Positions 8,180-46,427 of a stretch of 46,427 nucleotides of DNA are shown in pieces. A model generated the notes under the pieces. It worked only from the letters and a program-made list of their open reading frames with translations. It was not told the DNA's origin and made no database searches. The stretch lies in the NCBI GenBank assembly GCA_017403885.1, contig JAFRDM010000020.1:1-46427 (forward strand), given 5' to 3'. Position 1 is the first letter of the stretch, and every line of letters begins with the position of its first letter. The translations under genes and the position numbers were made by a program. Source of the stretch: Oscillospiraceae bacterium (lineage in GTDB: Bacteria > Bacillota > Clostridia > Oscillospirales > Oscillospiraceae).

Positions 8180-8428
8180 TTATGCGATACCGGCGTAGCG
8201 CTGCTTGACCGTGTCCAGCTTCTGCTGCGTGGCCTGTTCGCTGGGATACCAGCCGCGCTCGGCCATGTTCTTGTAGATATCGCTCTGCATGCACAGCGCG
8301 CTCTCCAGCGCGGTGTTGAAGGTCCCGTGTACGTTCGGAGTGGCCGACTCGACCGTGCCGTGCATATACAGGTCGACAACGCCCTTGGTCGTCATCAGGA
8401 TGCCTTCCATAATCTCCTTGTCGTTCAT
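8180..8428 (-). CDS. CotF-family spore coat protein
   Basis: This 82-residue protein matches the CotF/coat-F domain: an N-terminal helix (MNDKEIMEGILMTTKGVVDLYMHGTVES), then a second helix with FNTALESALCMQSDIYKNMAERGWYP. GWYP is the conserved turn seen in the coat-F family. Such proteins are deposited on the endospore coat. The ATG at 8428 has a GGAGAG site and lies 12 bases after a 57-residue gene with a related look, so the two probably form a sporulation operon. I saw no convincing sigma-E or sigma-K promoter. Confidence 0.82.
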   Translation of the reverse strand: MNDKEIMEGILMTTKGVVDLYMHGTVESATPNVHGTFNTALESALCMQSDIYKNMAERGWYPSEQATQQKLDTVKQRYAGIA

Positions 8429-8440
8429 CGTTCGCTCTCC

Positions 8441-8614
8441 TTACACAAGATTGTAGAAGCTGGCAAACAGCTTCTGATGCTCCGCGACCATGCGCTGCGC
8501 GGCGCCTCGCAGGGCGGGATCGGTCAGCTGGCTGGCGGCCGCGCGGCACTGGGTCATCAGATACTGCGTATGGCCGAGCGCGTCTTCGATATAAAGCAGT
8601 TCTTTCGGGCTCAT
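8441..8614 (-). CDS. Small helical protein, probable CotF-operon partner
   Basis: This 57-residue protein (MSPKELLYIEDALGHTQYLMTQCRAAASQ at the start) is all-helical, without a membrane segment. It resembles the short coat-associated proteins found before coat-F genes in Clostridia. The ATG at 8614 has GAGGTGAAAAAC upstream; a longer reading from about 8707 has no ribosome site and runs through an inverted repeat, so I reject it. The EDALGHTQ stretch is reminiscent of coat-F helices, but the family match is by eye. Likely a spore coat or inner-coat component. Confidence 0.7.
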   Translation of the reverse strand: MSPKELLYIEDALGHTQYLMTQCRAAASQLTDPALRGAAQRMVAEHQKLFASFYNLV

Positions 8615-8747
8615 GTTTTTCACCTCGTAACAGACTAAAACGGCCGCGGCGAAAAAGCGCGCCGCCGTTTCACGATTAGTATCTGCGAAAGCAAGCGCAA
8701 TAAACATGAAAAAATATCAAATTTGACTCGCCTGTCCGGCTTTTCCG

Positions 8748-8756
8748 TGTTATACT
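8748..8756 (+). promoter_or_regulatory. Extended -10 promoter element
   Basis: TGTTATACT, an extended -10, lies 28 bases before the ATG of the small membrane protein gene. No good -35 is present at 17 bases. Confidence 0.4.
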
Positions 8757-8784
8757 TAAGCGAGCATACAAGGAGCGTGATTAC

Positions 8785-9063
8785 ATGAATACAACCTTAT
8801 CCGTGATCGTCGGGCTCATTTGGGGCGGCCTGTTCGGGCTGATCGGGGCGCTCATTACCAAAAAGATGGCCGCGGGCGACCAGAAGGCCATCTCCTCGCT
8901 GAGTCTGATCCGCACGCTGATCGACGCCGCTGCGCTGGCCGCGGTGTATTTCACACGCAATTTGCTGCCGCTGCAGTTTGGAGCGACCCTGATATCCACG
9001 GCCGTTTCGCTGACGCTGATCGGCACCGTCGCGGCTTTCCGCACCGCAGCCAAAATGAAATGA
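8785..9063 (+). CDS. Small three-helix membrane protein, function unknown
   Basis: This 92-residue protein has three hydrophobic helices (about residues 4-24, 41-57 and 66-86) joined by short loops, the first with a basic KKMAAGDQK segment. There is no signal peptidase site. In size and helix spacing it recalls ATP-synthase I-type small membrane proteins, but no motif confirms this. AAGGAG precedes the ATG and a very strong terminator follows, so it is monocistronic. Function not assigned. Confidence 0.75.
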   Translation: MNTTLSVIVGLIWGGLFGLIGALITKKMAAGDQKAISSLSLIRTLIDAAALAAVYFTRNLLPLQFGATLISTAVSLTLIGTVAAFRTAAKMK

Positions 9064-9079
9064 CCGCCCGTTCGAAAGC

Positions 9080-9130
9080 AAAGAGAGCGCGTCCGAATGC
9101 GAAAGCAATTCGGACGCGCTCTCTTTCTTT
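9080..9130. terminator. Strong bidirectional terminator
   Basis: A 19-bp stem (9080-9098 with 9108-9126), extended by GC/GC around a GAAA tetraloop with one bulged A, is followed by TTTCTTTGTT. It separates the small membrane protein gene from the convergent 149-residue gene. Confidence 0.9.
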
Positions 9131-9135
9131 GTTGT

Positions 9136-9585
9136 TTAATCCCCGCCGGTCGCGGCTTTTTCGTCGGCGGAAACGATGTCGTCAAAGGCGCCGATCTCCA
9201 CTTCGATGTCCTTCTCCGCGCCCTCCGGCGCGACGGCGTCACGCAGCGCGCCGATCTCGTCCTCGAGAGAGCGGATCTTCTCCGCCGTCTCGGAGGCCTG
9301 CGCGAAGAGCGGCGCGAAAAAGCCGCCGGCGCTGTCCCTTGCCTGTTCGAAGTAGAGCCTGCCGATCTCGGTGTAGACCTTTCGCAGTTCCTCGCCCTCC
9401 CGATTGAGCTCCAGCGTAAGCTTTGCGATCCTCGCATAGGTCTTCGTGCGCTCGGTCCCGCGGGCGTAAGCGTCGCGCACCGCGCCGTTTTTGTCCACGG
9501 TCTCGACCACCTGCGCGCCGACTTCCTTCGCCTTTTTCATCAGACCGCCGAGCGTTTCGGCCAGCTTTTCCATCGTATCACTCAT
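9136..9585 (-). CDS. Hypothetical helical (coiled-coil-like) protein
   Basis: This 149-residue protein is almost entirely helix-forming and charged, with heptad-like stretches from about 20 to 125 (KLTLELNREGEELRKVYTEIGRLYFEQ and later SETAEKIRSLEDEIGALRDAV). It has an acidic C-terminus and no cysteine or membrane segment. Its start overlaps the end of lgt by 8 bases, and a terminator follows, so it is the last gene of the ymfF-ymfH-lgt operon. I recognise no domain; a small scaffold or regulatory partner is possible. Confidence 0.78.
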   Translation of the reverse strand: MSDTMEKLAETLGGLMKKAKEVGAQVVETVDKNGAVRDAYARGTERTKTYARIAKLTLELNREGEELRKVYTEIGRLYFEQARDSAGGFFAPLFAQASETAEKIRSLEDEIGALRDAVAPEGAEKDIEVEIGAFDDIVSADEKAATGGD

Positions 9586-33934: not shown

Positions 33935-35694
33935 TCAGTCGATATTGTATTTCGTACGGAAGCGTTCGTAATTCTCCTCGAAGGATCCTGTTCGGATCAG
34001 CTTGAGACTGTCGACGTATTCGTGCGTGTCGAACAGGTCGTGCTCCAGCTCGATCATCGCCACGGCCACATTCGAGCAGTGATCGCCCACGCGCTCGAAA
34101 TTCGTGAGAAGATCGTTGAACACAAAACCGTTCTGGAGCGTGCAGATCCCCTGCTGGAGACGGTCAACATGGTGGTTGCGCATCAAATCGCAGAGATTGT
34201 CGATGACCTCCTCGAGCGGTTCGACCTGCAGGGCAAGATCCATGTCGTCGTGCTCGAACGCGCGGACCGCCATTTCCACGACTTCGGTCACGGCGGCGCT
34301 GAGCACGCCGAGCTCGTATTCGGAGGCTTTGGAGAACTCGATCTTTTTGTCGAACATCTCCTTCGCGCTCTCGGCAAGATTGCGCGCGTGGTCGGAGATG
34401 CGCTCAAAATCCGTGATCGCGTGGAGGTACTTGTGCAGGTCCTCGTTCTGCTTGGCGGTCATCTCCGTGGGCGTGATCTGCAGCAGATACGAGCCCTGCG
34501 CGTCCTCGTAACGATCGACCTGTTCCTCCTCGCCGCAGACGCGCTCGTAGTCCTCCTCGCTGTACTCGCCGCGCAGGGCAATGGCGTCGAGCAGGCTTTT
34601 TTTCGCGGTCTCGGCCATGTCGACGATGATCTTATGGCTCTGCTCCAGCGCGAGAGCCGGGTAGCGGACAAAGCGTTCCTCGAGCGCGATGACCGCTCCG
34701 GTATCTTTCGCGGGGGCGTCGGGCGCCCGCACCAGGGCGTCGGTGATCTTCTCGATCGTGCCGATGAACGGCGCGAGGGCGAAGACCGTTACAAGACGGA
34801 AGGCCGTGTTCATCGCCGCGACGTCCACGATCCCGACGCTGCCGGTCGCAAATGCAAGCGGATGGACGGCGTTGACCGCGTAAAAGACACAGCCGCAAAA
34901 GAGCGCGCCGAGCACGTCGATCACCAGATGCGCAACGGCCGTGCGCACGCCGTTGATGTTGGCGCCGAGAGCGCCGAGCAGAACGGGCAGCGCGCCGCCG
35001 ACGGCGATGCCGAGCAGCAGCGGGAAGGCCTCGGCAAAGCTGAGCGCTCCGGTGAGCGAGAGCGCCTGAAGGATGCCGACCGCGGCGGCGGAGCTTTGGA
35101 TGATCGCAGTGAAGACCGCGCCGACTATGAAGCCGAGCAGCGGATTCGACAGCGAGATCATCAGGCTCAGAAAGCTCTCGCTGTAGCGCAGCGGCTCGAC
35201 CGCGGCGCTCATCGTGCTCATGCCGAACATCAAATGGCAAAGCCCATCAGGATGTCGCCCACATGGTGCCTTGACGCTTTTTTGGAAAACTTGCGCAGGA
35301 CGATGCCGACCACGGCGATGACGCCGGTGATCGCCGCAGTGGACAGCAGCTCGATCCAGCCCTCGGCCCCGCCGAGGCTGGACAGACAGATGATCCATCC
35401 CGTGACGGAGGTGCCGAGGATGCTGCCGAGGATCACCGATACCGCCTGGGCGAACTGCATGAGCCCGGAGTTGACAAAGCCCACGCACATGACCGAAACG
35501 GCGGAGGACGATTGGATCACGGCCGTCACCATCGTGCCGAGCAGGATGCCGCGCACACGGCTGGAGGTCAGACAGAAGAGCACCGATTCGAGACGGTTGC
35601 CGGCCACGAGGTTGAGGCCGTCGCCCATCAGCGTGATGCCGTATAGAAAGAACGCAAGCCCCGCGAGGAGCGAGATCACATTCAAAAAGCTCAT
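33935..35694 (-). pseudogene. Na/Pi cotransporter family protein, broken by a one-base frameshift
   Basis: Two reading frames together give a protein of about 586 residues with two Na/Pi cotransporter repeats and a C-terminal PhoU-like helical domain (DFERISDHARNLAESAKEMFDKK). The first frame, from the ATG at 35694 with a GGAG site, covers the first repeat (TAVIQSSSAVSVM) and ends at TGA (35230-35232) after GDILMGFAI. The second frame resumes in the same place with LMFGMSTMSAAVEPL and keeps the second QSSSA motif. Adding one T to the ATTTGATG stretch (the A-run at 35232-35234 on the plus strand) restores GFAILMFGM. Such proteins export or import phosphate. It may be a sequence error or a true mutation. 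Confidence 0.85.
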
Positions 35695-35746
35695 ACAGTT
35701 TCTCCGATTCCATCAGTCGTAACGACAGTATACCCAATAAAGCGGC

Positions 35747-35782
35747 AAAAGCAAGCGCGCCGGAGCGGACGCGCTTGCTTTT
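35747..35782 (-). terminator. Terminator of the molybdenum-oxidoreductase operon
   Basis: AAAAGCAAGCGCG (35747-35759) pairs perfectly with 35770-35782 around a ten-base loop, giving a T-rich tail on the minus strand. It overlaps the ligase stop codon by one base. Confidence 0.85.
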
Positions 35783-36972
35783 CAGCTGTTTTCGACCCTG
35801 CGCTTTGCGCGGTAGAGCGGTCCGTCTTCCATGCGGACGGGGCGCGCCGTGACCGCGGCGCCGAGCGGGGGGAGCCGCCCTTCGCCGCAGGTAAGCACCT
35901 CCAGACAGAGCTTTCCGTCTCTCCTCTCCGCGCGGTAGTCGGCCACGAAGGGAAGCCGGAACAGCACCTCATCCAGCGCGGCTATCTCCTCTCCCCCGTC
36001 GCGGCGGCTGACCGTGTCGAGGCGGAGCACCTCGCTGCCGCAGGGGCAGCTCCCCGGCAGGATGCGCGTGTAGTCGCCCGTGCGGTAGCGGATGAGGGGC
36101 ATGGCCTCCATGCCGATCGTCGTGATGACGAGCTCGCCGTACTCCCCCGCCGGAAGCGCTTTTCCGTCCCCGTCCACGATCTCGGCGATCACGTGGTTTT
36201 CCCGCAGATGCATGCCCGCGTGGGCGGGGCAGGTGATCGCGCCGCCGAGCGCCATCTCGCGCGAGCCGTAGTGCGGGAACAGCCGCGAGCCGAGGATGCT
36301 CTCGCAGCTCTCGATCACGGCAGCGGGACAGAGATCGCCGCTGATGAGCGCGCGGCGCAGGCTCCCCCTGCCGCAGACGCGCAGCAGACGCAGCAGCTGC
36401 ACGGGCATACCGACGAAGGAATCCGGCTTTTCGCGATTGAGCACGTCTTTCCATTCGCCGTAGGTCCCGGAAGCGCCCAGCTTCAGCGGCCGCGCTCCGA
36501 GACGCGAAACGGCCTCGGCGATCAGCTCGCCCAAGCCGAAGGGGCCGGTGAAGGGGAAAAGGATCATCGTGACGCTGCCCGGAAAGATCAGCTCGCCCAG
36601 GCCCGCCATGAAGAGCTCGACGGTTCGTTCACAATCGCCCTCGGTATAGAACACGCGCTTGGCCGCGCCCGTCGTGCCGGAGGTCGCATCCGAGAGGACG
36701 CGGCTGATCTCGCTCTGCGAGCGCAGCAGCAGCCCCGGCGCGTTCGTGGCGAGCTGCTCGTCCGTGGTGAAGGGCAGCGAGGGCAGGTCCGCCAGGGAAA
36801 AAAGCCGCTCCGGCAGATCGCGGTAAAACCCGCCGCGCTCCTTTTCCCGCGCCAGAAGACGGTTGAGCTTTTTAAGCTGGATCGCCCCGATCGTTTCCCT
36901 GTCGATACGTTCCAGGCCCTCCTGTCGGGCGATCAGCGCGTCGATGCGCGGCATGTCCTCCGTAAAAGTCAC
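35782..36972 (-). CDS. Phenylacetate-CoA ligase-like AMP-forming enzyme (DVU_1553-type)
   Basis: This 396-residue protein has the adenylate-forming P-loop (SDATSGTTGAAKRVFYT) near residue 105, the PHYGSREMALGG motif near 235, and IRYRTGDYTRI with CPCGSE, as in PaaK-type aryl-CoA ligases. It is slightly shorter than PaaK (about 430). It could activate an aromatic or other acid with ATP; neither acid nor thiol is known. The likely start is GTG at 36972, whose GTGA overlaps the previous stop; an ATG six codons on has GGAGG only two bases away. It ends the long operon. NCBI names such proteins DVU_1553-family CoA ligases. Confidence 0.82.
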   Translation of the reverse strand: MTFTEDMPRIDALIARQEGLERIDRETIGAIQLKKLNRLLAREKERGGFYRDLPERLFSLADLPSLPFTTDEQLATNAPGLLLRSQSEISRVLSDATSGTTGAAKRVFYTEGDCERTVELFMAGLGELIFPGSVTMILFPFTGPFGLGELIAEAVSRLGARPLKLGASGTYGEWKDVLNREKPDSFVGMPVQLLRLLRVCGRGSLRRALISGDLCPAAVIESCESILGSRLFPHYGSREMALGGAITCPAHAGMHLRENHVIAEIVDGDGKALPAGEYGELVITTIGMEAMPLIRYRTGDYTRILPGSCPCGSEVLRLDTVSRRDGGEEIAALDEVLFRLPFVADYRAERRDGKLCLEVLTCGEGRLPPLGAAVTARPVRMEDGPLYRAKRRVENS

Positions 36973-37394
36973 AGCAGCCCCTTCTCCGAGAGGATCTCCA
37001 TGCACTTCTCGTAGGTGGCGGCGATGATCTGCGGGCAGCACTCCACGCGCCGCGCGGGATTCCCGCGCGTGATGTCGCGGCATTCGATCCCGCCGTAATC
37101 GGCGGTCATCTCGTCGGCGAACCATTGGGTGAACTCGCCGAGCGCGCTCTTGTGCTCGGGGTGGTCCATGCCCGTGTCCTCCCCTTTGCCGGTGAAGTAG
37201 GAGATCACGCAGGCGCCGCCGGTCATGCAGCCGCAGCAGCCCTGTGAAAAGCCCACGCCGCCGTTGAGCCCGCCCATGGCCTTGACGAGGCCGGGGTTTT
37301 CCTCGCCCACGGTTTCAAGCATCAGGATCGCCAGGATCTGGCCGCAGAAATAGCCGTAACGGCTCAGCTCCATGATGCGGTCAAAGATATCCAT
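36969..37394 (-). CDS. C-GCAxxG-C-C family cysteine-rich protein (DVU_1555-type)
   Basis: This 141-residue protein has nine cysteines: C17, C53, C54, C56, C62, C105, C119, C120 and C131. The block QGCCGCMTGGAC (51-62) is a variant of the C-GCAxxG-C-C redox or metal-binding motif, with Met in place of Ala. There is no membrane segment. The family occurs beside redox enzymes and may carry a cluster or a thiol-linked intermediate; that is inference. The ATG at 37394 with AGGAG overlaps the methyltransferase end by 14 bases, and its stop overlaps the ligase start. Confidence 0.82.
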   Translation of the reverse strand: MDIFDRIMELSRYGYFCGQILAILMLETVGEENPGLVKAMGGLNGGVGFSQGCCGCMTGGACVISYFTGKGEDTGMDHPEHKSALGEFTQWFADEMTADYGGIECRDITRGNPARRVECCPQIIAATYEKCMEILSEKGLL

Positions 37395-37911
37395 CTTGTT
37401 TCTCCTTCCTTCCGATCAAAAGCCGATAACTGCTTCTTCCTTTCGGGATATCGCAGCAGGGCGCGTCGCCGCGCCACAGCGCTTCGAGGTAATATTCTTT
37501 CCACAGGGCCGTCCAGTCCTCGGAAAAGAGGATTTCAAATCCCGCGCCGCGTACCGGCGGCTCGGGGGGCGTGAAAAACACGTCGGAGAGCAGCAGCTTT
37601 CCGCCGCTTTTCAGCAGCCTGTACGCCTCGCGCAGCGCGCCGGATTGATCGCCCGAGACGAAAAAGGCGCACTGGGAGATCACCGCGTCGAAGCTGCCGT
37701 CCGGGAACGGAGCGCGGAGAAGATCGCCCTGCTCCACCGCCGGAGAGCGCGGCGCGAGGTCAATCCCGCGCGCCGCAAAGCCCAGCGAGCGCAGCAGCTC
37801 CACCGTCTCGCCCGCGCCGGCGCCCATGTCGAGCACGGCCGCGCCGGCGGGCAGAGCGGCAAGCTCAATGAGGCGGCGGGTTTGTTCCTCGCCGCCCGGA
37901 TGGCTTTTCAT
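37381..37911 (-). CDS. SAM-dependent methyltransferase (DVU_1556-type)
   Basis: This 176-residue class I methyltransferase has motif I VLDMGAGAGETVELLRSLG, the acidic ARGIDLAP strand, FDAVISQCAFF (motif IV) and the LKSGGKLLLSDVFF strand. Length fits the short Methyltransf_11 type. A cysteine pair in the C-terminal part (APCCDI) could bind metal or thiols. The substrate is unknown. Start and stop are coupled to neighbours: ATGA with the redox-protein gene before it, and a 14-base overlap with the cysteine-rich gene after it. Confidence 0.85.
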   Translation of the reverse strand: MKSHPGGEEQTRRLIELAALPAGAAVLDMGAGAGETVELLRSLGFAARGIDLAPRSPAVEQGDLLRAPFPDGSFDAVISQCAFFVSGDQSGALREAYRLLKSGGKLLLSDVFFTPPEPPVRGAGFEILFSEDWTALWKEYYLEALWRGDAPCCDIPKGRSSYRLLIGRKEKQDGYL

Positions 37912-38129
37912 TTATCCTCCAGCGCCCGCTCGACCGAGGCGACCTTGCCCAGCGCCAGCTCCTCCGGCACATAGACGAAGCCGCAGACCGGGCAAACGGG
38001 CAGTTCGACCGGAAAGCCGTTATCCAGGTACATGAACTTGGCCTTTCCCTTGACGAGCGGTACGCCGCACTTGACGCACCTGAGCCTGCCCTGCGGGTCT
38101 ATGGTATAGTAATTTTTCTCGACAGCCAT
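37908..38129 (-). CDS. Four-cysteine redox/zinc-ribbon protein (DVU_1557-type)
   Basis: This 73-residue protein has two CxxC knuckles (C18/C21 and C46/C49) in the pattern CVKCG ... CPVCGFVYVPEE, similar to rubredoxin or a zinc ribbon, in an otherwise ordinary small fold. It could hold one iron or zinc. The ATG at 38129 has GGGAGGGCTGAGC upstream and lies 2 bases after the stop of the large dicluster protein gene. NCBI names the related family DVU_1557 family redox protein; the function is not established. Confidence 0.82.
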   Translation of the reverse strand: MAVEKNYYTIDPQGRLRCVKCGVPLVKGKAKFMYLDNGFPVELPVCPVCGFVYVPEELALGKVASVERALEDK

Positions 38130-38131
38130 GC

Positions 38132-40420
38132 TCAGCCCTCCCGTTTTTCCACTCTCATGCGGTGGCTCCACGCGCGGTGAACAAGATATCCGTCCTCCTC
38201 GCGGCTGAACTTCACCCAGAAGGTGGCGTTGCCGACGCGGCGGCGGGCGACCAGCAGGCCGTCCTCGTCCTCGATGGCCTCGCCGCTGGCGCGGAAGTCC
38301 TCGAGTACGGCGATCACGTCCTCGACGAGGATCATGCGATCGTCCATCAGCGCGCGTGCCTCCCCGGTAAAGGCGAGGGAATAGTCCAGTTTCTTTTCCA
38401 TTGCTTCCTCCAGCCAGACCTCCTGCAGAAGTTCGTTTTTAAGGCTCAGGCGGTTTTTGCGCTTTTCGCTGATATCCGGCGGCGCGCCGGCGTCCGTGCC
38501 GTAGCACAGCTCGAGGATGTGCCGGGATTCCCTCCCCTGCCGGGCAAAGCGGTCGCGGCAGGCCATACAGTAGGAGATGTAGGGCGCGTCACTGCGCTCG
38601 AGACATTTTTCCGTCATCTCCCCAGCCACCTCGCGGTTGGCGTAGGCAGTGAGTCCGCCATAGCCGCAGCAGGGAGAGCGGTCGCCGGAACAGAGCGTGT
38701 CCACCAGCTCGCAGCCGAGCTGCGCGGCAAGCGTACGGATGGCTTTCTGCGTTGCCTCGTCCCCGCGCGCGCCGCAGGAGTCGTGCAGCGCGGCGGGCCG
38801 TTCGAGCGCATGCGCTCCCTCCGGAAGACCGAGCTCGAGCAGCACATCCCAGATCCCGCGCACTTCACAGCCGCAAAAGCTCCTCAATTCCTTCGCGCAG
38901 CTCGGGCAGCCGGCGATCACGATCGGGTCGCCCAGACGGGAGAGCTCGCGCTCCAGCAGCTCGCGCGTCTGCTCCTCCATCTCTGTTCTGCCCGCCCAGT
39001 CGGCGATCGCGCCGCAGCAGCCGAGGATCAGCGCCACACCGCCCTCGAGGCGCTCGCTCAGGTCGAGATATGCGGCCTTGACGGTAGCCGGGGCGATGGC
39101 CGCGGCCTGACAGCCTGGAAAGAAAGCATAGCGGCAGTTCTCATATCCCGGCTGGGGCCGCGCGAGGAAAGCCTCGCCGTTGGAAAAAAGCATGTCCAGC
39201 AGCGCGAACTCGTGCGGCGCCAACGGCATTTTGTCCGTGGAAACCATGTTGCGCCGTGCGGCGGCGCAGACCTGCGCCATATCAAAACCGTTGGGGCAGA
39301 CCACGCTGCACTGGCCACAGAGGGCGCAGGCGTTCATGGCCTTGTTGAGAGGGTGATCGCCCATGATGATCTGCGTGTTGTTGTAGATCTCGCGGGAGAG
39401 CAGCCCGGGATGCTTCTTGTAATGCTTGAGGTAGGCGCAGGTCTTCAGGCACTCCTCGCAGTGGCAGGCGATGCAGCGGCCTGCCTCCTCGACGGCCTGT
39501 TCCTTCGTATAGCCCTCCTCGCCGAGAGGGACGCGGCGAAGGGCCTTCGCCGCGGAGAGATCGGTGTAGAGCTTGCTCCCGCAGGCCCCCTCGCTGCCGC
39601 GCATGTTGCGCGGATCGAGCTTCTGTGCCAGACGGTCGACGGTCAGCGCGGCCTTCTTCGCGCCGAAGGCAGTGTCCAGCACGCCCGCGCAGCTCCCGCA
39701 TACGAGGCTCTCCTCCTCGCAGAACATCAGCTCCGGAATGACCGCAGCCTCCGGGAAGAGGGCCTTCGTCATCGCTTCCGAGGCGCAGAGCACGTCGAAG
39801 CGGGCTTTTTTATCCTCATAAAACGCCGCGTCGAGGCGGCAGTTGAATTCAAATTGGATGTCCTTGCCCTTCAGGCGCTTGAGCTCGGGAGCAAAGTCCT
39901 TCTCGCTCAAGAAGGGCGCGCAGGCGCGCAGATAGCTCTCGCAGTCGGTCTGTCCGCAGAAGACGGTGATCGGGTAGGCCTTTTTTTCCAGCTCGCCCGC
40001 GAGAAAGAGCGTAAAGAGATCGGCGCCGAGGACGGCGACGGTCTTTCTTTTTTTGCTGCGGAACACGCCTCCCAGGCGCGACTGCTCGCCGAAGCGGGAG
40101 ACCGCGGCCTCGACGGCGCGGACGGAGACGGTGTCGCCGATCTCGCCGAGACGGCACTTTCCCTCGCAGGGCGCTTCGCAGCCCGAGGAAAGCACCAGCG
40201 GAAAGGGGGCGACCTTCTCATAGAGCTGCAGCGCTTTTTTGAAATCGCCGTCCGCAGCCGCCTTCAAAAAGGCGCGCACGTCCAGCTTCAGGGGGCAGGC
40301 GGCGCTGCAGAAGGGCGGCTGCTCGTAGACGCAGCGCGCCGTCATCTCGTCCATCTCCTCCTTGGAGATCTTGTTGACCTTATAGACATGGGTGGAGCCG
40401 CGCTCCCGGATCTGCGACAT
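38132..40420 (-). CDS. Large Fe-S dicluster/CCG-domain oxidoreductase with degenerate nucleotide site
   Basis: This 762-residue cytoplasmic protein joins several electron-transfer parts. A GltD-like N-terminal cluster domain has PPFCSAACPL and SGCEAPCEGKC (about 36-90). A shortened Rossmann segment follows, but the usual GxGxxG reads VLGADLFTLF (130-139), so FAD/NAD binding is doubtful. A ferredoxin-like dicluster domain comes next (CIACHCEECLKTC near 314, CALCGQCSVVCP near 367). Two CCG domains of the heterodisulfide-reductase kind follow (LGCCGA and PCCGYGG), then an unrecognised 80-residue C-terminal domain. It probably carries electrons to or from the Mo-enzyme encoded before it. I prefer the ATG at 40420, with AAAGGGG upstream; 40438 is an alternative. 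Confidence 0.85.
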   Translation of the reverse strand: MSQIRERGSTHVYKVNKISKEEMDEMTARCVYEQPPFCSAACPLKLDVRAFLKAAADGDFKKALQLYEKVAPFPLVLSSGCEAPCEGKCRLGEIGDTVSVRAVEAAVSRFGEQSRLGGVFRSKKRKTVAVLGADLFTLFLAGELEKKAYPITVFCGQTDCESYLRACAPFLSEKDFAPELKRLKGKDIQFEFNCRLDAAFYEDKKARFDVLCASEAMTKALFPEAAVIPELMFCEEESLVCGSCAGVLDTAFGAKKAALTVDRLAQKLDPRNMRGSEGACGSKLYTDLSAAKALRRVPLGEEGYTKEQAVEEAGRCIACHCEECLKTCAYLKHYKKHPGLLSREIYNNTQIIMGDHPLNKAMNACALCGQCSVVCPNGFDMAQVCAAARRNMVSTDKMPLAPHEFALLDMLFSNGEAFLARPQPGYENCRYAFFPGCQAAAIAPATVKAAYLDLSERLEGGVALILGCCGAIADWAGRTEMEEQTRELLERELSRLGDPIVIAGCPSCAKELRSFCGCEVRGIWDVLLELGLPEGAHALERPAALHDSCGARGDEATQKAIRTLAAQLGCELVDTLCSGDRSPCCGYGGLTAYANREVAGEMTEKCLERSDAPYISYCMACRDRFARQGRESRHILELCYGTDAGAPPDISEKRKNRLSLKNELLQEVWLEEAMEKKLDYSLAFTGEARALMDDRMILVEDVIAVLEDFRASGEAIEDEDGLLVARRRVGNATFWVKFSREEDGYLVHRAWSHRMRVEKREG

Positions 40421-40449
40421 TCCTCCATCCCCTTTCATGGTTTTTATGC

Positions 40450-40479
40450 AATAGAGAGGCCCTTTCGGGCCTCTCTATT
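40450..40479 (-). other. Stable stem-loop between the Mo-enzyme and dicluster genes
   Basis: A 13-bp perfect stem (40450-40462 with 40467-40479) has a GAAA tetraloop on the minus strand. No T-run follows, so it more likely protects or separates the very abundant Mo-enzyme message than terminates. Confidence 0.6.
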
Positions 40480-40507
40480 ATAGCATGGGTATTGCGCTTT
40501 GAAAAGA

Positions 40508-43267
40508 TTACTTCTCCATCGCCTTGAGGGCCGCGAGCACCTTGTCCGGGCGGGCCGGGATGCGGGTGATGCGGGCGCCGGTGGCGTTGTAGATGGCGTT
40601 GAGGACGGCCGGGTGCGGCGCATCCAGCGGGGCCTCGCCGCAGCCGGCGGCGCCGTAGGGGCCGTAGGGACGGTAGGTCTCGTTGAAGTGCAGCTCGATG
40701 TCGTCGGGGATGTCGCAGGGATACGGGATGCCGCACTTGAGCAGGCTGGTCTCCTTCTCGAGATCATCGAAGTCCTCGCTGAGGGCCAGGCCGATGCCCT
40801 GAGCCAGGCCGCCGTAGAAGTTGCCTTCGACGAGCAGGCGGTTCATGATCGTGCCGACGTCGGCCACGCAGGTGAACTTCTCGACCTTGACCTTGCCGGT
40901 CTGGGTGTCGACGCAGACCTCGGGGAGGAAGATCGTGTACATGTAGGTCGCGAAGGGCTCGCCCTGGGCGGTATCCTGGTCGACCGGGTGATCGGCGCAG
41001 TAGGTGGTGACCCAGTTGCCCTCGACCAGCAGCTTCTTGCCGTCGGCGACCATCTCGTCATAGGTGCGGAAGGTACCGTCGTCCTTCTTCATCTCGGCGA
41101 CCAGAGCCTCGGCGGCGAGACGGCAGGCGTTGCCGCTCATGACCTGGGAACGGGAGCCGCCCGCAGGGCCGGAGTTCGGGGTGATCTTGGTGTCGTTCAT
41201 GACCAGGCGGATCTGATCGGGACGGATGCCGGCCTGACGCAGAGTCTCATGAGCGGAGACGAGCGCACCCATGTCGGCGCCCTGGCCGTGATCCTCCCAG
41301 GAGACATAGATCGTCACGGTGCCGTCCTTGTTCAGCTCGGCCTTCGCGGAGGAGGCGTCGACGCCGTCCAGGCCGCAGCCGTAAACGCCGAGGGACACGC
41401 CGATGCCGTACTTGTAGCGGCCGTCGGAGGCGGCGTTCTTCTCTTCGCAGCGCTTCTTGCCGGCATAGTACAGCGGGCGGGCCTTCTCAAAGAGGGCTTC
41501 TTCGCAGTAGACCTCGGGCGGATAGCCGGTCGGAATCGTGGTGTGCTCAGACTCCTTGTAGCAGTTCATCGCGCGCATCTCGAACGGGTCGATGCCCATC
41601 TTGGCGGCGAGGCAGTCGATCGCGATCTCGGAGCCCATGAAGGACTGAGGCGAGCCGTAGGCACGGAACGCGGAGCCCCAGGCATGGTTCGTGAAGACCG
41701 TCTGGCTCTTGTTGCGGATGGAGGCGATGCCGTAGCCGGCGCCGGTGAACTGGCTCAGACGCATGGTGAGCAGATCGCCGAACTCGGAGTACGGGCCGTG
41801 GTCGACGTAGTTGTCGCCCCACAGGGCCAGCAGCTTGCCGTTCTTGTCGGCCGCCAGCTTGATGTGCATGAAGGCCGGGGAGCGCTTGCCGGTGTAGGTG
41901 ATGTTCTGGAACTGGTTGAAGTTCAGGGACACGGGAACGCCGAGGATCTTGACGGCCGCGCCGATGAGCGCCTCGTTCGTCGGGGAGAACTTGTAGCCGA
42001 AGGTGCCGCCCGCGTGGTTCTGGACCAGACGGAGGTTCTCCATCGGAACGCCGATGCCGGCCGCGATCATGGGCATGTGCAGGTGGATGCCGATGGACTT
42101 GGAGTGAACGGTGATCATGCCGTCCTCATCCACGTAGCCGTAGCCGTTGTCCGGCTCGAGGTGCAGGTGCGGCTGACGGGAGCAGTAGCTCTCGATCTCG
42201 ACCTGCTGAGCGTCGGGGATGCTGTCCCAATCGAAGTCGGGTCCCTTGATGCAGTTCGTCTCATAGAAGACGTTCGGGGTGCCCGGGTGGATCTCGATGG
42301 CGTCGGGCGCCATGGCGTCGAGCGCGTTCATGTAGGCGGGCAGCTCTTCGATCTCGACCTTGACGGCGTCGGCGGCGGCACGGGCATGAGCCTCGGTGTC
42401 GGCGGCGACGATGGCGATGGCGTCACCGAACTGGAAGATCTTGTCGGAGCAGAGGACCGGACGCTCGAAGCCGTCGGTCTTGTTGTGCTTGGGCAGCATG
42501 ACCAGACCGTTGATCTGGTTGGTGCCGCCGGCGGCGAGGATGTCCTTGTAGGTGATGACCTTGACAACGCCGGGCATCTTCTCGGCCTCGGAGATGTCGA
42601 TGTTCTTGATGTTGGCGTGAGAGACCTTCGCCTGGGTCAGAGCGAGGCGCAGGCAGCCGGGCATCTTGAGCGCGTCGTCGGCGCCGAAGTCCCAGGTGCC
42701 GGTGACCTTCTGGGCGGCGGAGGGACGGATGTACTTGGTGCCCTTGATGGAGTCGCCGGTGGGCTTGAAGATCAGGTCTTCCTTGCTCATCTCGCCGCGG
42801 AGAACGGCAGCGGCGGCCATGGTGGCGTCGATGAGGGGCTTGTAGCCGGTGCAGCGGCAGAGGTTGCGCTGCTTGTTGAACCAGTCGCGGACTTCCTCGC
42901 GGGTCGGGTTCGGGTTGTTCTCGAGAAGGACCTTTGCACTGATGATGAAGCCGGGCGTGCAGAAGCCGCACTGCGCGCAGCCGAAGGCCATCCACGCGAC
43001 CTGCAGCGGATGCATGTCGCTCAGAGTGCCGACGCCCTCGATCGTGGTGATCTCGGCGTTATCGGGGATCCTGCTCATCTTGAAGATACAGGCCTTGGTG
43101 ACCTTGCCGTTCACGATGACGTTGCACGCGCCGCAGTGGCCCTCGCCGCAGCCGATCTTGCAGCCGGTCAGCAGCAGGTGCTCGCGCAGAACGGTCGCCA
43201 GGGTCTCGTCCTTGTCGAGGACCAGATTCCGGGTAACGCCGTTGATGACAAGCGTTTTCTTGATCAT
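40508..43267 (-). CDS. Molybdopterin-dependent aldehyde oxidoreductase (Mop-type)
   Basis: A 919-residue xanthine-oxidase-family enzyme in one chain, without an FAD domain. The plant-type [2Fe-2S] cysteines are C40, C45, C48 and C60; the second cluster has C100, C103, C137 and C139. These are the same residue numbers known for Desulfovibrio gigas aldehyde oxidoreductase (907 residues). The Mo-binding part starts near 180 (KVTGTWDFGADD), includes the FRAYGSPQS loop, and has the catalytic Glu878 in GCGEAPL. Members oxidise aldehydes or N-heterocycles and use a molybdopterin cytosine dinucleotide cofactor. Substrate unknown. AGGAGG lies before the ATG. Strong codon bias suggests high expression. 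Confidence 0.94.
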   Translation of the reverse strand: MIKKTLVINGVTRNLVLDKDETLATVLREHLLLTGCKIGCGEGHCGACNVIVNGKVTKACIFKMSRIPDNAEITTIEGVGTLSDMHPLQVAWMAFGCAQCGFCTPGFIISAKVLLENNPNPTREEVRDWFNKQRNLCRCTGYKPLIDATMAAAAVLRGEMSKEDLIFKPTGDSIKGTKYIRPSAAQKVTGTWDFGADDALKMPGCLRLALTQAKVSHANIKNIDISEAEKMPGVVKVITYKDILAAGGTNQINGLVMLPKHNKTDGFERPVLCSDKIFQFGDAIAIVAADTEAHARAAADAVKVEIEELPAYMNALDAMAPDAIEIHPGTPNVFYETNCIKGPDFDWDSIPDAQQVEIESYCSRQPHLHLEPDNGYGYVDEDGMITVHSKSIGIHLHMPMIAAGIGVPMENLRLVQNHAGGTFGYKFSPTNEALIGAAVKILGVPVSLNFNQFQNITYTGKRSPAFMHIKLAADKNGKLLALWGDNYVDHGPYSEFGDLLTMRLSQFTGAGYGIASIRNKSQTVFTNHAWGSAFRAYGSPQSFMGSEIAIDCLAAKMGIDPFEMRAMNCYKESEHTTIPTGYPPEVYCEEALFEKARPLYYAGKKRCEEKNAASDGRYKYGIGVSLGVYGCGLDGVDASSAKAELNKDGTVTIYVSWEDHGQGADMGALVSAHETLRQAGIRPDQIRLVMNDTKITPNSGPAGGSRSQVMSGNACRLAAEALVAEMKKDDGTFRTYDEMVADGKKLLVEGNWVTTYCADHPVDQDTAQGEPFATYMYTIFLPEVCVDTQTGKVKVEKFTCVADVGTIMNRLLVEGNFYGGLAQGIGLALSEDFDDLEKETSLLKCGIPYPCDIPDDIELHFNETYRPYGPYGAAGCGEAPLDAPHPAVLNAIYNATGARITRIPARPDKVLAALKAMEK

Positions 43268-43281
43268 GTGTTTTCCTCCTG

Positions 43282-43299
43282 ATATAAAAATTTTTATAT
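43282..43299. promoter_or_regulatory. Perfect 18-bp palindrome before the Mo-enzyme ribosome site
   Basis: ATATAAAAATTTTTATAT is fully self-complementary and ends 3 bases from the AGGAGG of the Mo-enzyme gene. It could be an operator or an A/U stem that affects translation. Confidence 0.5.
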
Positions 43300-43327
43300 G
43301 TGCCCTTTTTGGGGGGATCGCGCTGTG

Positions 43328-43588
43328 TTAACGGCTGTGTCCGCCGCAGGGATCGTGATCCGGTCCCTTGCCCGTGAGATCCTTCATGCGCTCGATGCCG
43401 CGCGCCGAGAGGAACACGAGCTGGGAAATGCTGCCGTCCATATTCTCACCGCGCAGGCGCAGAAAATTGGCGTTCTCGTAATAGTCGATCGGCAGCTCGC
43501 GGCGGTAGACCTCGCCGCTCTGCCTGTCCGTGATCTCGACGATCACGCTGTCCGCGATCAGTTCGAATACTTCCTCTTTCCCGTCCAT
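43328..43588 (-). CDS. Small protein of unknown function, first gene of the Mo-oxidoreductase operon
   Basis: This 86-residue protein has no membrane helix or signal peptide. It reads as a small beta-rich domain (VFELIADSVIVEITDRQSGEVYRRELPIDYYENANFLRLRG cannot be placed in a known family), then a helix, and ends in DHDPCGGHSR, where H78, C81 and H84 could bind a metal. AAGGGAAGG precedes the ATG at 43588. It is 60 bases before the Mo-enzyme gene and directly after the operon promoter. It may help mature or partner the enzyme; that is inference from position. Confidence 0.7.
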   Translation of the reverse strand: MDGKEEVFELIADSVIVEITDRQSGEVYRRELPIDYYENANFLRLRGENMDGSISQLVFLSARGIERMKDLTGKGPDHDPCGGHSR

Positions 43589-43623
43589 GAAACACCTTCC
43601 CTTCTACATTACTTTCCAAGCAT

Positions 43624-43653
43624 ATTGTACCTCCGCCGCCCGTATCCTTTCAA
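43624..43653 (-). promoter_or_regulatory. Promoter of the Mo-oxidoreductase operon
   Basis: On the minus strand TTGAAA (43648-43653), an 18-base spacer and TACAAT (43624-43629) lie about 35 bases before the 86-residue gene. Confidence 0.6.
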
Positions 43654-43661
43654 TTTATAAA

Positions 43662-43696
43662 TAAAAGCAACTCGCAGAAATTGCGAATTGCTTTTT
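43662..43696. terminator. Terminator between the TylF-like gene and the Mo operon
   Basis: AGCAA-TCGCA (43666-43676) pairs with TGCGA-TTGCT (43682-43692) with one mismatch and a GAAAT loop. On the minus strand the tail reads TTTTATTTAT. Confidence 0.7.
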
Positions 43697-43753
43697 GTAA
43701 ATAGTTCACAAGTTTTGAAGTGATTTTTTTACGTTTCCGTCGAAGAAATGGCG

Positions 43754-44710
43754 TTATTTGGCAATGACCAGCGTGCCGTTCACATCCGCAAGCGGCACGG
43801 CGGGGAGCCCGCGGCCGAGCTCGGCCTCGTAGCGCTCCAGCGCACGCGCCACGCCAGGCAGGCGCGGAGAGCCCCAGTCGTGCAGCAGCAGGAAGCCGCC
43901 CGGCGAGAGCCTCGGATGGAAGAAGCGCAGGCCCGCGAGCGTACTCTCCTCGAGGTCCGCGTCGAGCGATACAAGGGCAAAGCGCTCGTCCTCCAGCCCC
44001 GCGGCCGTGGCCGGAAAAAGCCCGGGGCGCAGGATCGCCCGGCCGGGATGCGGCAGAAGGGCAAGCACCCGTTCGGCGCTCGTGTTCCTGTGCGCCTGCG
44101 TGAAGCCCGCGCCTTCCTCCGACGCCTCGGTCTCGTCAAAGCCCGCGAAGGTGTCGAAGAGATAGAGCGTCCGCTCCGGCAGAAGGGCGTTGAGGCAGCG
44201 TGCGAAGGCGCCGCGGTAGACGCCCAGCTCCGCGGCCGCGCCTTCGACGGAGCCGAGACGGCGGCAGATCGCCTCGAGCGTGCGCACGCGCACATAGTCG
44301 TTTTCCAGATCCTTTTCCTCCAGCGCGTTCTCCCCCGCCCACAGCGGGTCGCGCACGGCGCGCTGCGGGGTCCGCAGCGCGGCGAGGAAGTCTGCGTCGA
44401 AGAGACCTTCGACACGGGGATAGCTGCGGTTGCGATCGTACAGGCGCCAGTTGCTGCGCGCGAAGAAGAGCTTTTCCTCCCCGATCCCGAGCTCGGCGCA
44501 GCGCGCGGCGATCTCCTCCGCGCGGCGGCTCGCGACGACGACAAGGTCGATCTCGCGGTCTTTCAGCTCCTCCGGCCGCAGCACCGGGCGGCCGAGGAAG
44601 CTGGCGCAGAACGGTTCGCTGTCGATAAAGGCGGTGACGAGGGAGGGATCGAGCGCGCGGTCCATAAGCTCGCCCGCGCCGCAGCCCGTGCCCCAGACAT
44701 AGAGTTTCAT
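43754..44710 (-). CDS. TylF/MycF-like O-methyltransferase with N-terminal Rossmann-like domain
   Basis: This 318-residue protein has two parts. Residues 1-90 form a small Rossmann-like domain (MKLYVWGTGCGAGELMDRAL, LVVVASRRAEEI), as in proteins that modify sugars or cell-surface groups. Residues 120-318 are a macrocin-O-methyltransferase (TylF) domain with GVYRGAFARCLNALLPERTLYLFDTFAGFDETE and SLDADLEESTLAGLRFFHPRLSPGGFLLLHDWG. The acceptor is unknown. The ATG at 44710 has GGGAGAAAG upstream. It is transcribed away from the nucleotidyltransferase gene from a shared operator region (44742-44806). Confidence 0.82.
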   Translation of the reverse strand: MKLYVWGTGCGAGELMDRALDPSLVTAFIDSEPFCASFLGRPVLRPEELKDREIDLVVVASRRAEEIAARCAELGIGEEKLFFARSNWRLYDRNRSYPRVEGLFDADFLAALRTPQRAVRDPLWAGENALEEKDLENDYVRVRTLEAICRRLGSVEGAAAELGVYRGAFARCLNALLPERTLYLFDTFAGFDETEASEEGAGFTQAHRNTSAERVLALLPHPGRAILRPGLFPATAAGLEDERFALVSLDADLEESTLAGLRFFHPRLSPGGFLLLHDWGSPRLPGVARALERYEAELGRGLPAVPLADVNGTLVIAK

Positions 44711-44741
44711 ATCGCTTTCTCCCGAATCGGTTCTTTTTTTC

Positions 44742-44770
44742 ATACTATGTCAAAAGACTGCAAAAGTAAA
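44742..44770 (-). promoter_or_regulatory. Promoter of TylF-like gene
   Basis: On the minus strand TTTACT (44765-44770), a 17-base spacer and TAGTAT (44742-44747) lie about 30 bases before the start codon. The -35 lies in the left arm of the palindrome. Confidence 0.6.
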
Positions 44771-44787
44771 GATTGTCTTTACTTTTG
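44761..44787. promoter_or_regulatory. 12-bp palindrome, probable operator for both divergent promoters
   Basis: CAAAAGTAAAGA (44761-44772), TTG, and its perfect complement TCTTTACTTTTG (44776-44787) make a two-fold symmetric site. Each arm holds one TTTACT -35, so a dimer bound here would block both promoters. The ModE-like domain encoded directly downstream is the obvious candidate binder (inference). Confidence 0.75.
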
Positions 44788-44806
44788 TGCGGGAAGCGGT
44801 TATACT
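44778..44806 (+). promoter_or_regulatory. Promoter of the MocA-ModE-like gene
   Basis: TTTACT (44778-44783), a 17-base spacer and TATACT (44801-44806) lie about 70 bases before the ATG at 44878. The -35 lies in the right arm of the palindrome. Confidence 0.65.
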
Positions 44807-44877
44807 TCTGTTATTCGATAATCATTTATTTACAACTCGTTTTCCGGTACAATTCGATCGCAGAGGAGAGTGAAGAA

Positions 44878-45801
44878 ATGCAGGTCGGCGCGGTGATCGT
44901 TGCGGCGGGCATGTCGTCGCGGATGGGCGATTTCAAGCCCATGCTCAATATCGGCTCAATCTCTATCGCGCAGCGGATCGTAGCCACCTTCCACCAGGCC
45001 GGCGTGGCGAAGATCGCCGTCATCACGGGCTATAACGCCCCGCTGCTCGAGAGGCATCTGGCCAACAACGGTCTGGTCTTTCTGCGCAACGAGGATTACG
45101 CCAGCACGCAGATGTTCGACTCGGCAAAAATCGGGCTCGGTTATATGCGCGACAAGTGCGACAGCATCCTCTTTACGCCCGTGGACATCCCGCTCTTTAC
45201 GGCGATGACGGTCACGCATCTGATCGAGTCGGGCGCGCCGCTGTGCTGCCCCGTGTGCGAAGGGAAGACCGGACATCCCCTGCTGATCGCCTCGGAGCTG
45301 GTCGACGCGATCCTTGCCGACTCCGGCGAGGGCGGTCTGCAGGGAGCGATCGGCCGCTGCGGCGCCGAAATGCTCCGCATCCCGGTGGACGATCCCGGCG
45401 TGCTGCACGACGCAGACACCCCCGCGGATTACAAGGCTCTGCTGCAGTTCCACAACGAGCAGCTCATCCGACCGGAGCTTTCCGTATCGCTCAGCCGCGA
45501 GAAGCCCTTCTTCGACGAGAAGACCGCGATGCTGCTCGCGCTCGTGGACGAGACGCGCTCGGTGCGCAGCGCCTGCCAGCGCATGCAGATCTCCTATTCG
45601 ACGGGCTGGAACATCATCCGCGCGCTCGAGAGCCAGCTGCACTTCCCGCTGCTCGAGCGCAGCCAGGGCGGCGCAAGCGGAGGCGAGAGCCGTCTGACGG
45701 AAAAGGGGAAGCGGCTGCTGGGCTGCTACGAGCGTTTTTCCGAGGCGCTGCGGCAGCAGGCTTCCGCTCTCTTTGAGCAATACTTCCGCGACGAGCTGTG
45801 A
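44878..45801 (+). CDS. MocA-like nucleotidyltransferase fused to ModE-like DNA-binding domain (DVU_1551-type)
   Basis: This 307-residue protein begins with a molybdopterin nucleotidyltransferase domain (1-195): VIVAAGMSSRMGDFKPML is the MobA/MocA nucleotide loop and FTPVDIPLF the metal-binding site. Such enzymes attach CMP (MocA) or GMP to molybdopterin; the neighbouring Mop-type oxidoreductase needs the cytosine form. Residues about 215-285 are a ModE/LysR-type winged helix (RSVRSACQRMQISYSTGWNIIRALE ... LTEKGKRLL). The two molybdate-binding C-terminal domains of classical ModE are absent. A GAGGAG site precedes the ATG; a longer N-terminus would cover the promoter. The phosphatase start overlaps its stop (TGATG). 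Confidence 0.88.
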   Translation: MQVGAVIVAAGMSSRMGDFKPMLNIGSISIAQRIVATFHQAGVAKIAVITGYNAPLLERHLANNGLVFLRNEDYASTQMFDSAKIGLGYMRDKCDSILFTPVDIPLFTAMTVTHLIESGAPLCCPVCEGKTGHPLLIASELVDAILADSGEGGLQGAIGRCGAEMLRIPVDDPGVLHDADTPADYKALLQFHNEQLIRPELSVSLSREKPFFDEKTAMLLALVDETRSVRSACQRMQISYSTGWNIIRALESQLHFPLLERSQGGASGGESRLTEKGKRLLGCYERFSEALRQQASALFEQYFRDEL

Positions 45802-46427
45802 TGAGGACGCTGTATCTCATCCGCCACGCGATGCCGGACATTCCTCTGGGCGAGCGCTGGTGCGTCGGCGGAAGGAGCGACTTCCCGCTGGGGGCGCTCG
45901 GCCGGCTGCAGGCCGCGCTGCTGCCCTTCGCGCCGGAGCTGCGCGACGTGAAAGAGGTCTACTGCAGCGCGCTCACCCGCGCAAGGCAGACCGCCGGGGC
46001 CCTCTGCGCCGCGCCGACGGTCGTGCCGGGGCTGGAGGAGCAGGATATGGGCGAATGGGACGGCCTGTCCTTCGCCGAGATCAAAGAAAAGTACCCCGCG
46101 CTCTACGCCGCGCGGGAAAAGGATCCCCGTCTGCTGCCCGCCGGAGCGGAGAGCGAAGATGCGGTCCGCGCCCGGATGAAGACCGCGCTGCTGCGCATCC
46201 TCGCGGCGGGCGAGGGCGACGCCGCCGCCGTCAGCCACAAGGGCGCGATCGCCAGCCTGATCGGGACAAGACAGGGATTGGACTACGCCTCGCTCACCCG
46301 GCTGTGCTTTGAGGGAGAGCGGCTCGTCTCCTGCGAGACCCTGCCCCCGCCGCATCCCGCGCCGTCCGACGCCGTCTGCGAGGCGCTGCTCGCCGCCGCT
46401 CCCGGCGACGAGGCTCTGCGCGGGCAC
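45801..46427 (+). CDS. Histidine phosphatase family protein (3' end outside window)
   Basis: The first 209 codons are visible. LYLIRHAMPD gives the catalytic RHA motif and YCSALTRARQTA the second conserved arginine region; EEQDMGEWDG and AAVSHKGAIASLIG complete the phosphoglycerate-mutase-like core, as in alpha-ribazole phosphatases (CobC). The core would end near residue 180, but the frame stays open to the window edge (PAPSDAVCEALLAAAPGDEALRGH), so a second domain may follow. The start is coupled to the nucleotidyltransferase stop, which suggests a joint role, perhaps removing a phosphate in cofactor or signalling chemistry. The substrate is unknown. Confidence 0.82.
   Translation, partial: MRTLYLIRHAMPDIPLGERWCVGGRSDFPLGALGRLQAALLPFAPELRDVKEVYCSALTRARQTAGALCAAPTVVPGLEEQDMGEWDGLSFAEIKEKYPALYAAREKDPRLLPAGAESEDAVRARMKTALLRILAAGEGDAAAVSHKGAIASLIGTRQGLDYASLTRLCFEGERLVSCETLPPPHPAPSDAVCEALLAAAPGDEALRGH

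Follow-up and report, generated by a model that had tools for sequence, protein, structure and literature searches.

The window analysed here is the whole 46,427-nt contig JAFRDM010000020.1 (assembly GCA_017403885.1) of a gut bacterium of the Oscillospiraceae, and its right-hand end carries a compact gene set around Mop, a molybdenum enzyme of the aldehyde-oxidising type. We propose that these genes probably form a molybdenum-controlled system, in which an aldehyde oxidoreductase goes with a module that includes a ligase and the radical S-adenosylmethionine (SAM) protein TrsS, and in which the Mop operon is switched by a MocA-ModE fusion protein acting on 24-bp sites. The proposal builds on features observed directly: gene content, co-occurrence, the fusion, the operator, the operator position, and the molybdenum-related neighbours. 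Seven genes make up a leftward operon in the order U86-MOP-DIC-CXX-MT-CGC-LIG, and two rightward genes, the MocA-ModE fusion followed by a histidine phosphatase, run to the contig end. The gene set as such is already known from NCBIfam and from databases; what is new is the fusion branch, the operator, the loss of a flavin motif, and the 86-residue protein U86.

In the proposed mechanism, the cytoplasmic oxidoreductase, of the molybdopterin cytosine dinucleotide (MCD) type, would hand on its electrons to a small redox protein and to an iron-sulfur/CCG protein that lacks flavin. The ligase, the methyltransferase, and the C-GCAxxG-C-C protein would form one conserved system with TrsS, DUF5714, and XdhC, which are encoded elsewhere, and the ligase module would serve either the substrate or the cofactor of Mop. 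The fusion, judging from its MocA half, would make the MCD cofactor, and it is predicted to bind the 24-bp sites, activating the Mop operon from a site that abuts the -35 element and repressing its own gene from a site after the -10 element. Through such a switch, the enzyme would therefore be made when molybdenum cofactor can be supplied.

The MocA-ModE gene (44878..45801, plus strand) encodes 307 residues and joins a MobA-like nucleotidyltransferase to a ModE-type winged helix, with both PF12804 and PF00126 over their cut-offs. The preliminary description, made from the DNA alone, had named it a MocA-ModE-like fusion; this was correct and proved its most informative part. The protein remained below the cut-offs of NF045665 (187/315 bits), TIGR03310 (102/186 bits), and TIGR00637 (62/98.5 bits, E 3.6e-17), and its ModE part matched the ModE chains 2ijl, 1b9m, and 1o7l of the PDB (E 1.9e-7 to 3.1e-6). 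Among relatives, the MocA of the system occurs in two forms, one with an HD domain (15 open reading frames (ORFs); PF01966 confirmed in 3/3 checked) and one with the ModE-type winged helix (60 ORFs), and none has both (near-copies included). The ModE form is a single clade in the Mop tree (20/20 rows, support 100/100), whose members are, by record titles, Oscillospiraceae, Lachnospiraceae (with Blautia), Erysipelotrichaceae, Veillonellaceae, Tissierellia, and Clostridiaceae.

This branch also differs in its dicluster protein DIC. The third glycine of the flavin motif was lost in 37/37 loci (numbered L) with the ModE form versus 0/15 loci with the HD form, and in 22/33 loci without a typed MocA, one of which (L073) lies outside the ModE branch. 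The Fe-S and CCG motifs were kept in six aligned ModE-type loci. The dicluster/CCG identity given in the preliminary description stands; because the glycine is lost, 'pyridine nucleotide-disulfide oxidoreductase', as NCBIfam calls the family, is hardly an apt name for the DIC of this branch.

The nucleotide-binding signature AAGxSSRMGxxK was present in the window fusion and in 51 further ModE-type fusion ORFs, and no match was found in eight, one by truncation (L101) and seven by real loss. The seven fusions that lost the signature (SSRMG...K) keep the ModE half and come from six Erysipelotrichaceae and one Lachnospiraceae, by record titles. In three of these seven, a MobA-like protein with an intact signature lies elsewhere in the locus, complete in L127, whereas in L139 and L153 the locus ends within the ORF and only part of it is seen. 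L127 thus encodes a fusion with a degenerate MocA half (8357-9436) and a separate MocA with an intact signature (19603-20229), likely a split of regulator and enzyme.

A 24-bp sequence, CGA-N18-TCG, first spotted by eye, recurs upstream of the fusion genes. We built a palindromic position weight matrix (PWM) seeded from five sites and refined on 37 fusion-gene upstream regions, of which 30 sites were used. Training excluded L111, L114, L122, L148, L156, and L168, in which a DUF5714 gene lies directly 5' of MocA, as well as L215, L218, and L223 (second fetches of the L150, L161, and L114 genomes) and L167 (HD type). An unseeded motif search was discarded, because it caught TylF coding sequence. 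Scanning the whole window, we found the best match at 43651..43674 (operator 1; 21.2 bits, a site outside the training set), where the predicted palindrome-like operator abuts the -35 element of the Mop promoter, and the second at 44816..44839 (operator 2; 19.2 bits, a site of the training set), directly downstream of the predicted -10 hexamer TATACT of the MocA-ModE gene (44801..44806, plus strand; promoter scan and spacing analysis). The third match reached only 10.8 bits, and 20 first-order shuffles of the window peaked at 5.4-15.0 bits. A weaker second copy upstream of operator 1 (43684..43707, 8.9 bits) is within the shuffle range.

The operator scans of relatives covered fetched genome stretches. 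The results showed 114 matches of at least 14 bits in 74 loci of the fusion branch (1.25 Mb, 58% G+C) and none in the other branch (27 loci; 0.53 Mb, 52% G+C and thus more AT-rich). With 40 column-permuted matrices we obtained 0-12 matches, 32 of the matrices giving 0-2. On the Mop side, the best -10-like hexamer begins 44-45 nt after the site start in 29/39 sites, which centres the site near -45, abutting the -35 element. Of the 30 sites on the fusion side, nine (the one in the window included) lie just after the -10 element and six lie between -35 and -10, ending 2 nt before the -10. In bacterial promoters, a position near -45 is usual for activators and a position between -35 and -10 or after -10 for repressors. 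These results suggest that the operator is placed in an activator-like manner at the Mop promoter and often in a repressor-like manner at the promoter of the fusion itself.

The ModE protein of E. coli acts as both activator and repressor through a 24-bp CG...CG box. The window fusion and E. coli ModE (1b9m, 1o7l) have in common the ModE-type winged helix, the 24-bp CG...CG geometry, and the activator- and repressor-like positions, but differ in that the fusion has a MocA nucleotidyltransferase instead of molbindin/TOBE as effector domain, and in the half-site, CGAATTG-like in the window and CGTTATAT-like in E. coli. It is unlikely that another regulator binds the 24-bp site, with the ModE domain of the fusion directed at some other target or at none, because among the scanned loci the site was confined to those of the fusion branch (114 versus 0 matches), and because it adjoins the fusion gene itself and has the CG...CG spacing of the E. 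coli ModE box; in addition, fusions with a degenerate MocA half still retain the winged helix.

We also analysed which genes adjoin the sites. In the wider set, 120/144 operator matches (some genomes counted twice) lie beside genes of the system, namely U86/MOP, MOCA, TYLF where it faces MOCA, MOEA, DUF5714, the histidine phosphatase gene, and others. Among the 24 remaining matches, ModA genes adjoin the sites in L110, L113, L121, L150 (second fetch L215), and L218; the permease and ATPase belonging to ModA were checked in L113 and L121, and L218 has three sites 5' of its ModA gene. The L144 site lies beside ModA and a two-TOBE molbindin, the L120 site beside MocA itself, and the L123 and L128 sites beside a FecCD-type transporter. 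In these last two loci (L123:3144-5463 and L128:3078-5409), a FecCD permease and a periplasmic binding protein face each other across the operator and are a candidate molybdenum-type importer. A further match of 15.2 bits stands between two ORFs (L084:10633-10656), and L122 holds another. We give just under an even chance to a more specific model, in which the fusion would read cofactor supply directly, through its nucleotidyltransferase domain instead of a domain that binds molybdate, and set a molybdenum regulon (the Mop operon, moeA, modABC, molbindin, and itself), the enzyme half having become a pure sensor in Erysipelotrichaceae and one Lachnospiraceae genome.

The operon genes abut or overlap, and LIG, with a probable GTG start at 36972, shares 4 nt with the stop end of CGC. 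The putative operon promoter, TTGAAA-18-TACAAT (43624..43653, minus strand), is a promoter-like sequence whose spacing to the operator is alike in most relatives. An intrinsic terminator is predicted at 35747..35782 (minus strand) from sequence and fold, as a hairpin followed by a T-run; the hairpin at 35782-35747 has a folding energy of -27.8 kcal/mol (z -3.3), with 1/200 shuffles equally good, and was not among the terminators listed by a simple terminator scan. All ORFs of the preliminary description were found, and the promoter and terminator are where it had placed them. An Rfam scan of the window at gathering cut-offs found no RNA.

The proteins were scored against NCBIfam with its curated cut-offs and against Pfam. 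Of the seven operon proteins, six had a match among the NCBIfam families DVU_1553-1559, built around D. vulgaris, five above the cut-off and the methyltransferase below it, which bears out the DVU_1551-1559 neighbourhood named in the preliminary description. MOP (40508..43267, minus strand), a molybdenum-dependent aldehyde oxidoreductase with two [2Fe-2S] and molybdenum-pterin domains, scored 1485 bits with NF045668 (cut-off 1100). It matches, over its full length, the Desulfovibrio Mop/MOD enzymes (1sij/1vlb and 1dgj; 1131 bits with 1dgj and 1091 bits with 1sij), from which it differs in organism and gene setting, and its cluster cysteines and active-site GxGE motif align with those of 1dgj. 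The two [2Fe-2S] motifs, the molybdenum-pterin domains, and the predicted active-site Glu mark MOP as a member of the xanthine oxidase family.

DIC (38132..40438, minus strand), the DVU_1558-like dicluster/CCG iron-sulfur protein, scored 765 bits with NF045663 (cut-off 530), and motif alignments showed that it retains the Fe-S and CCG motifs and has lost the flavin GxGxxG; a viral-contig search with the dicluster protein as query found no relative. CXX (37908..38171, minus strand, probable start ~38129) is a DVU_1557-family redox protein (DUF7479; NF045645 92 bits, cut-off 60; PF24292). MT (37381..37911, minus strand) is a short form of a DVU_1556-like SAM methyltransferase that matches Methyltransf_11 and remains below the NF045667 cut-off (127 bits, <155). 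CGC (36969..37394, minus strand) is a DVU_1555-family C-GCAxxG-C-C cysteine-rich protein (NF045669 152 bits, cut-off 103; PF09719).

LIG (35782..36972, minus strand), a PaaK-like adenylate-forming ligase of the DVU_1553 family, scored 322 bits with NF045666 (cut-off 300). A motif alignment of 14 loci showed TSGTTG, YGSRE, RYRTGDY, and a C-terminal KR, and the nearest known structures are phenylacetate-CoA ligases (PaaK 4r1l, E 1.8e-28), indicating that LIG has the predicted adenylate-forming core motifs of PaaK-like acyl-CoA ligases. The first operon gene encodes U86 (43328..43588, minus strand), which in an alignment has 15 invariant columns across 24 sequences and a C-terminal D-x-D-x-C-G-x-H. 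The preliminary description had this protein without a family, in agreement with our scans, in which U86 matched no NCBIfam or Pfam family and a PDB-sequence profile search gave no E-value below 0.098. U86 heads the operon or adjoins it, and L067 and L075 carry it outside the ModE clade as well.

To determine how far these genes belong together, we analysed an evenly drawn phylum sample of 398 genomes. Mop was above cut-off in 26/398 genomes (28 counting two copies cut by contig ends), and TrsS in 24/398 and slightly below in two, with the same numbers for the ligase (24 and 2). TrsS and the ligase occur together in 25/398 genomes, and Mop is present in 24/25 of those. The association of Mop with TrsS gave a Fisher p of 2.8e-35, or 5e-30 at strict cut-offs (22 genomes with both, against 4 and 2 that disagree), values that overstate independence because the genomes are related. 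Ligase, TrsS, and Mop form one real unit, present almost exclusively together in the 398 phylum genomes.

Gene order was counted on the same strand in loci reaching at least 8.5 kb beyond Mop (50/80 named loci and 17/20 phylum loci); CxxC counts from our own hidden Markov model were noisy and were left out. In the 50 named loci, profiles found DIC in 47, MT in 49, CGC in 48, LIG in 47, and TrsS in 27, and the remaining three loci (L101, L106, and L120) do show DIC by separate reading. The 17 phylum loci gave DIC in 17, MT in 13, CGC in 13, TrsS in 14, and LIG in 14. The core order extends to Proteobacteria, with MocA placed between CGC and TrsS (L162-L172). Three loci have no LIG, MT, or CGC downstream of Mop, where L076 has DIC only, L077 has DIC fused to CXX, and L079 has DIC and CXX there but carries TrsS and DUF5714 on the opposite side of Mop; their genomes also carry ligase and TrsS. 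DIC-CXX fusions were seen in L077 and L078. Gene order and co-occurrence are thus conserved far beyond chance. The functional unity claimed in the preliminary description holds, and the genes do co-occur elsewhere, both in the 398 phylum genomes and in a genus sample of 37 genomes.

In many near and far relatives, a protein of ~450 residues encoded between CGC and LIG is the radical-SAM (seleno)protein TrsS (602 bits in L128, 707 bits in L061). CGC and LIG of the window overlap, with no room for a TrsS gene between them, and the TrsS of the same genome, in a diverged form, lies on another contig (G000:C24:13431-14690; 500.6 bits, NF045646 cut-off 490). Among the 37 genus genomes, TrsS and DIC agree in 35 (29 with both, G031 with a cut DIC; 6 with neither), and the two discordant ones are G024, whose Mop is cut by a contig end, and G017. 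In 15/30 genus genomes that have TrsS, the gene is of a diverged form and stands apart from the operon. The agreement in 35/37 genomes therefore indicates that TrsS stays with the system even after leaving the operon. A selenocysteine form of TrsS was rejected, with none in the three copies read: the TGA in G341 is a stop codon, and the L102 and L124 frames have no in-frame TGA.

Other members are also encoded outside the window. A DUF5714 protein adjoins TrsS, LIG, MocA, or CGC in L079, L080, L103, L120, L123, L128, L139, L140, and L144, and lies ~1 kb 5' of TrsS in the window's own genome. This genome also encodes a putative XdhC-type maturation factor (G000:C66; NF045664 314.7 bits, below the cut-off of 350) and, outside the window, ModA. 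The operon grouping of the preliminary description is right, but the operon is only part of the system: the genes for TrsS, the XdhC-type factor, and ModA are found in other parts of the genome, and that for DUF5714 lies near TrsS. A second XdhC-like match in the same genome (G000:C91; L280 and L281) is in two pieces, one with an in-frame TGA. In Telmatospirillum siberiense (L163:16140-19157), MocA, HD, and TrsS are joined in one protein of 1006 residues.

TrsS has a radical-SAM core and an HMPTM-type zinc ribbon, a family name linked to pterin methylation. This ribbon, the tracking of Mop by TrsS and LIG over divergent Mop clades, the presence of an XdhC, MoeA, or NifS gene in 9/15 stretches around relocated TrsS genes, and the TrsS to MocA-HD fusion of Telmatospirillum would fit a role of TrsS, LIG, MT, and CGC in maturing Mop or its cofactor, making a modified cofactor or carrier needed by every such Mop. 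We hold this tentatively, as a serious possibility. In the other 6/15 stretches, that of the window's own genome included, none of XdhC, MoeA, and NifS was seen, a fusion of operon neighbours need not mean that one acts on the other, TrsS shows a strong resemblance to tetraether lipid synthase (Tes, 7tol), and three genomes have a Mop and neither LIG nor TrsS. The Mop of D. gigas, a well-studied enzyme, carries an ordinary MCD cofactor, which leads us away from a modified Mop.

The ligase module could instead act on the substrate: Mop would make or handle a carboxylic acid, LIG would activate it as an acyl-adenylate or thioester, and TrsS and MT would carry out further steps of one catabolic route. 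We regard this as conceivable, if less likely than not. The adenylate-forming motifs of LIG are intact and its relatives include PaaK, Mop is a close match to the Desulfovibrio MOP structures and shares its operon with the ligase, and a proteomics paper (PMC10920352) lists DVU_1559, alone of the set, under ethanol metabolism. On the other side, the module is constant over divergent Mop clades, which argues against a single substrate, the radical-SAM protein and the methyltransferase have no place in a simple route, and no conserved acyl-CoA enzyme was noticed beside the genes, whose neighbours were not annotated systematically (clustering was swamped by shadow ORFs). The features of LIG and TrsS would fit a substrate pathway or a Mop cofactor or carrier alike and allow no confident choice; we lean slightly to the cofactor or carrier because of the strict link to Mop over divergent clades and the frequent cofactor-gene neighbours.

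Returning to the molybdenum-controlled Mop system as a whole, several results weigh against it. The Pfam scan found no TOBE/molbindin domain in the fusion, the rest of which is MocA-like, so any molybdenum sensing would have to run through the MocA half or a partner. The favoured -10 spacing is absent in 10/39 Mop-side sites and in 15/30 fusion-side sites, which are scattered, and 7/37 training upstream regions scored below 5 bits. Training and test genomes were identical and their sequences are not independent, because the seeding used fusion upstream regions of related genomes. A scan of 37 genomes with an exact IUPAC pattern, too strict and unselective, found no match in the window's own genome, and counts with the reversed control were similar. 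The fetched ModA, XdhC, and TrsS regions of this genome contain no site of at least 9 bits, and a site of at least 14 bits was found in the fetched ModA locus of only 11/25 genus genomes that have ModA; the regulon is therefore variable, and the sites of the window's own genome are known only as the two in the window. As to the unity of the gene set, TrsS and ligase are both absent from three genomes with Mop (G266, G142, and G132), and the reverse holds for G413, where they are present and Mop is not. Finally, DVU155x is not mentioned in a mutant-fitness study of D. vulgaris (PMC10102598; term search of the main text).

The nearest known system is the DVU_1551-DVU_1559 set of NCBIfam (NF045645, NF045646, and NF045663-NF045669; Desulfovibrio vulgaris), with the same families in mostly the same order. 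The window has Mop, DIC, CxxC, CGC, and ligase over the curated cut-offs in one operon and TrsS in its genome, with NF045667 (127/155) and NF045665 (187/315) below cut-off. It differs from this set in that TrsS lies outside the operon, ModE replaces HD on MocA, the flavin motif of DIC is lost, and U86 comes first. TrsS passes its family cut-off in the window's own genome, but it lies on another contig and, in the window's subgroup, is a diverged form. PMC13188914 cites a study of TrsS neighbourhoods (Haft and Tolstoy 2025, mSystems). Our literature search, which did not cover Haft and Tolstoy 2025, found neither a paper giving the DVU_1551-1559 set a function nor a description of a MocA-ModE fusion with an operator.

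Several further genes surround the system. The phosphatase gene announced in the preliminary description is present beside MocA-ModE as a histidine phosphatase gene (45798..46427, plus strand) and runs off the contig (PF00300; 91 bits with TIGR03162, below its cut-off). A gene (43754-44743, minus strand) for a TylF-like methyltransferase with, by eye, an N-terminal Rossmann-like part separates the Mop operon from the fusion gene, here as in many genus loci; it faces the fusion gene and may be within reach of operator 2 as well. Many genus loci have it on the same strand as U86 and 5' of that gene, but it was dropped as a part of the system for lack of a family link. A phosphate-transporter-like gene (by eye) lies 3' of the ligase (33935-35737, minus strand), with overlapping frames at 33935-35737 and 35230-35694, and a frameshift near 35230 is possible. 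The genus genomes, including that of the window, each have several ORFs of ~900 residues with a GltD-like start.

The predicted regulator-operator pair tells when the system would be used, namely according to the supply of molybdenum cofactor. Any functional model has to account for how strictly Mop is paired with TrsS and the ligase, and should include U86 and DUF5714, two members beyond the named set. If the proposal is true, a cofactor-making enzyme fused to ModE would be an unusual way to sense molybdenum.

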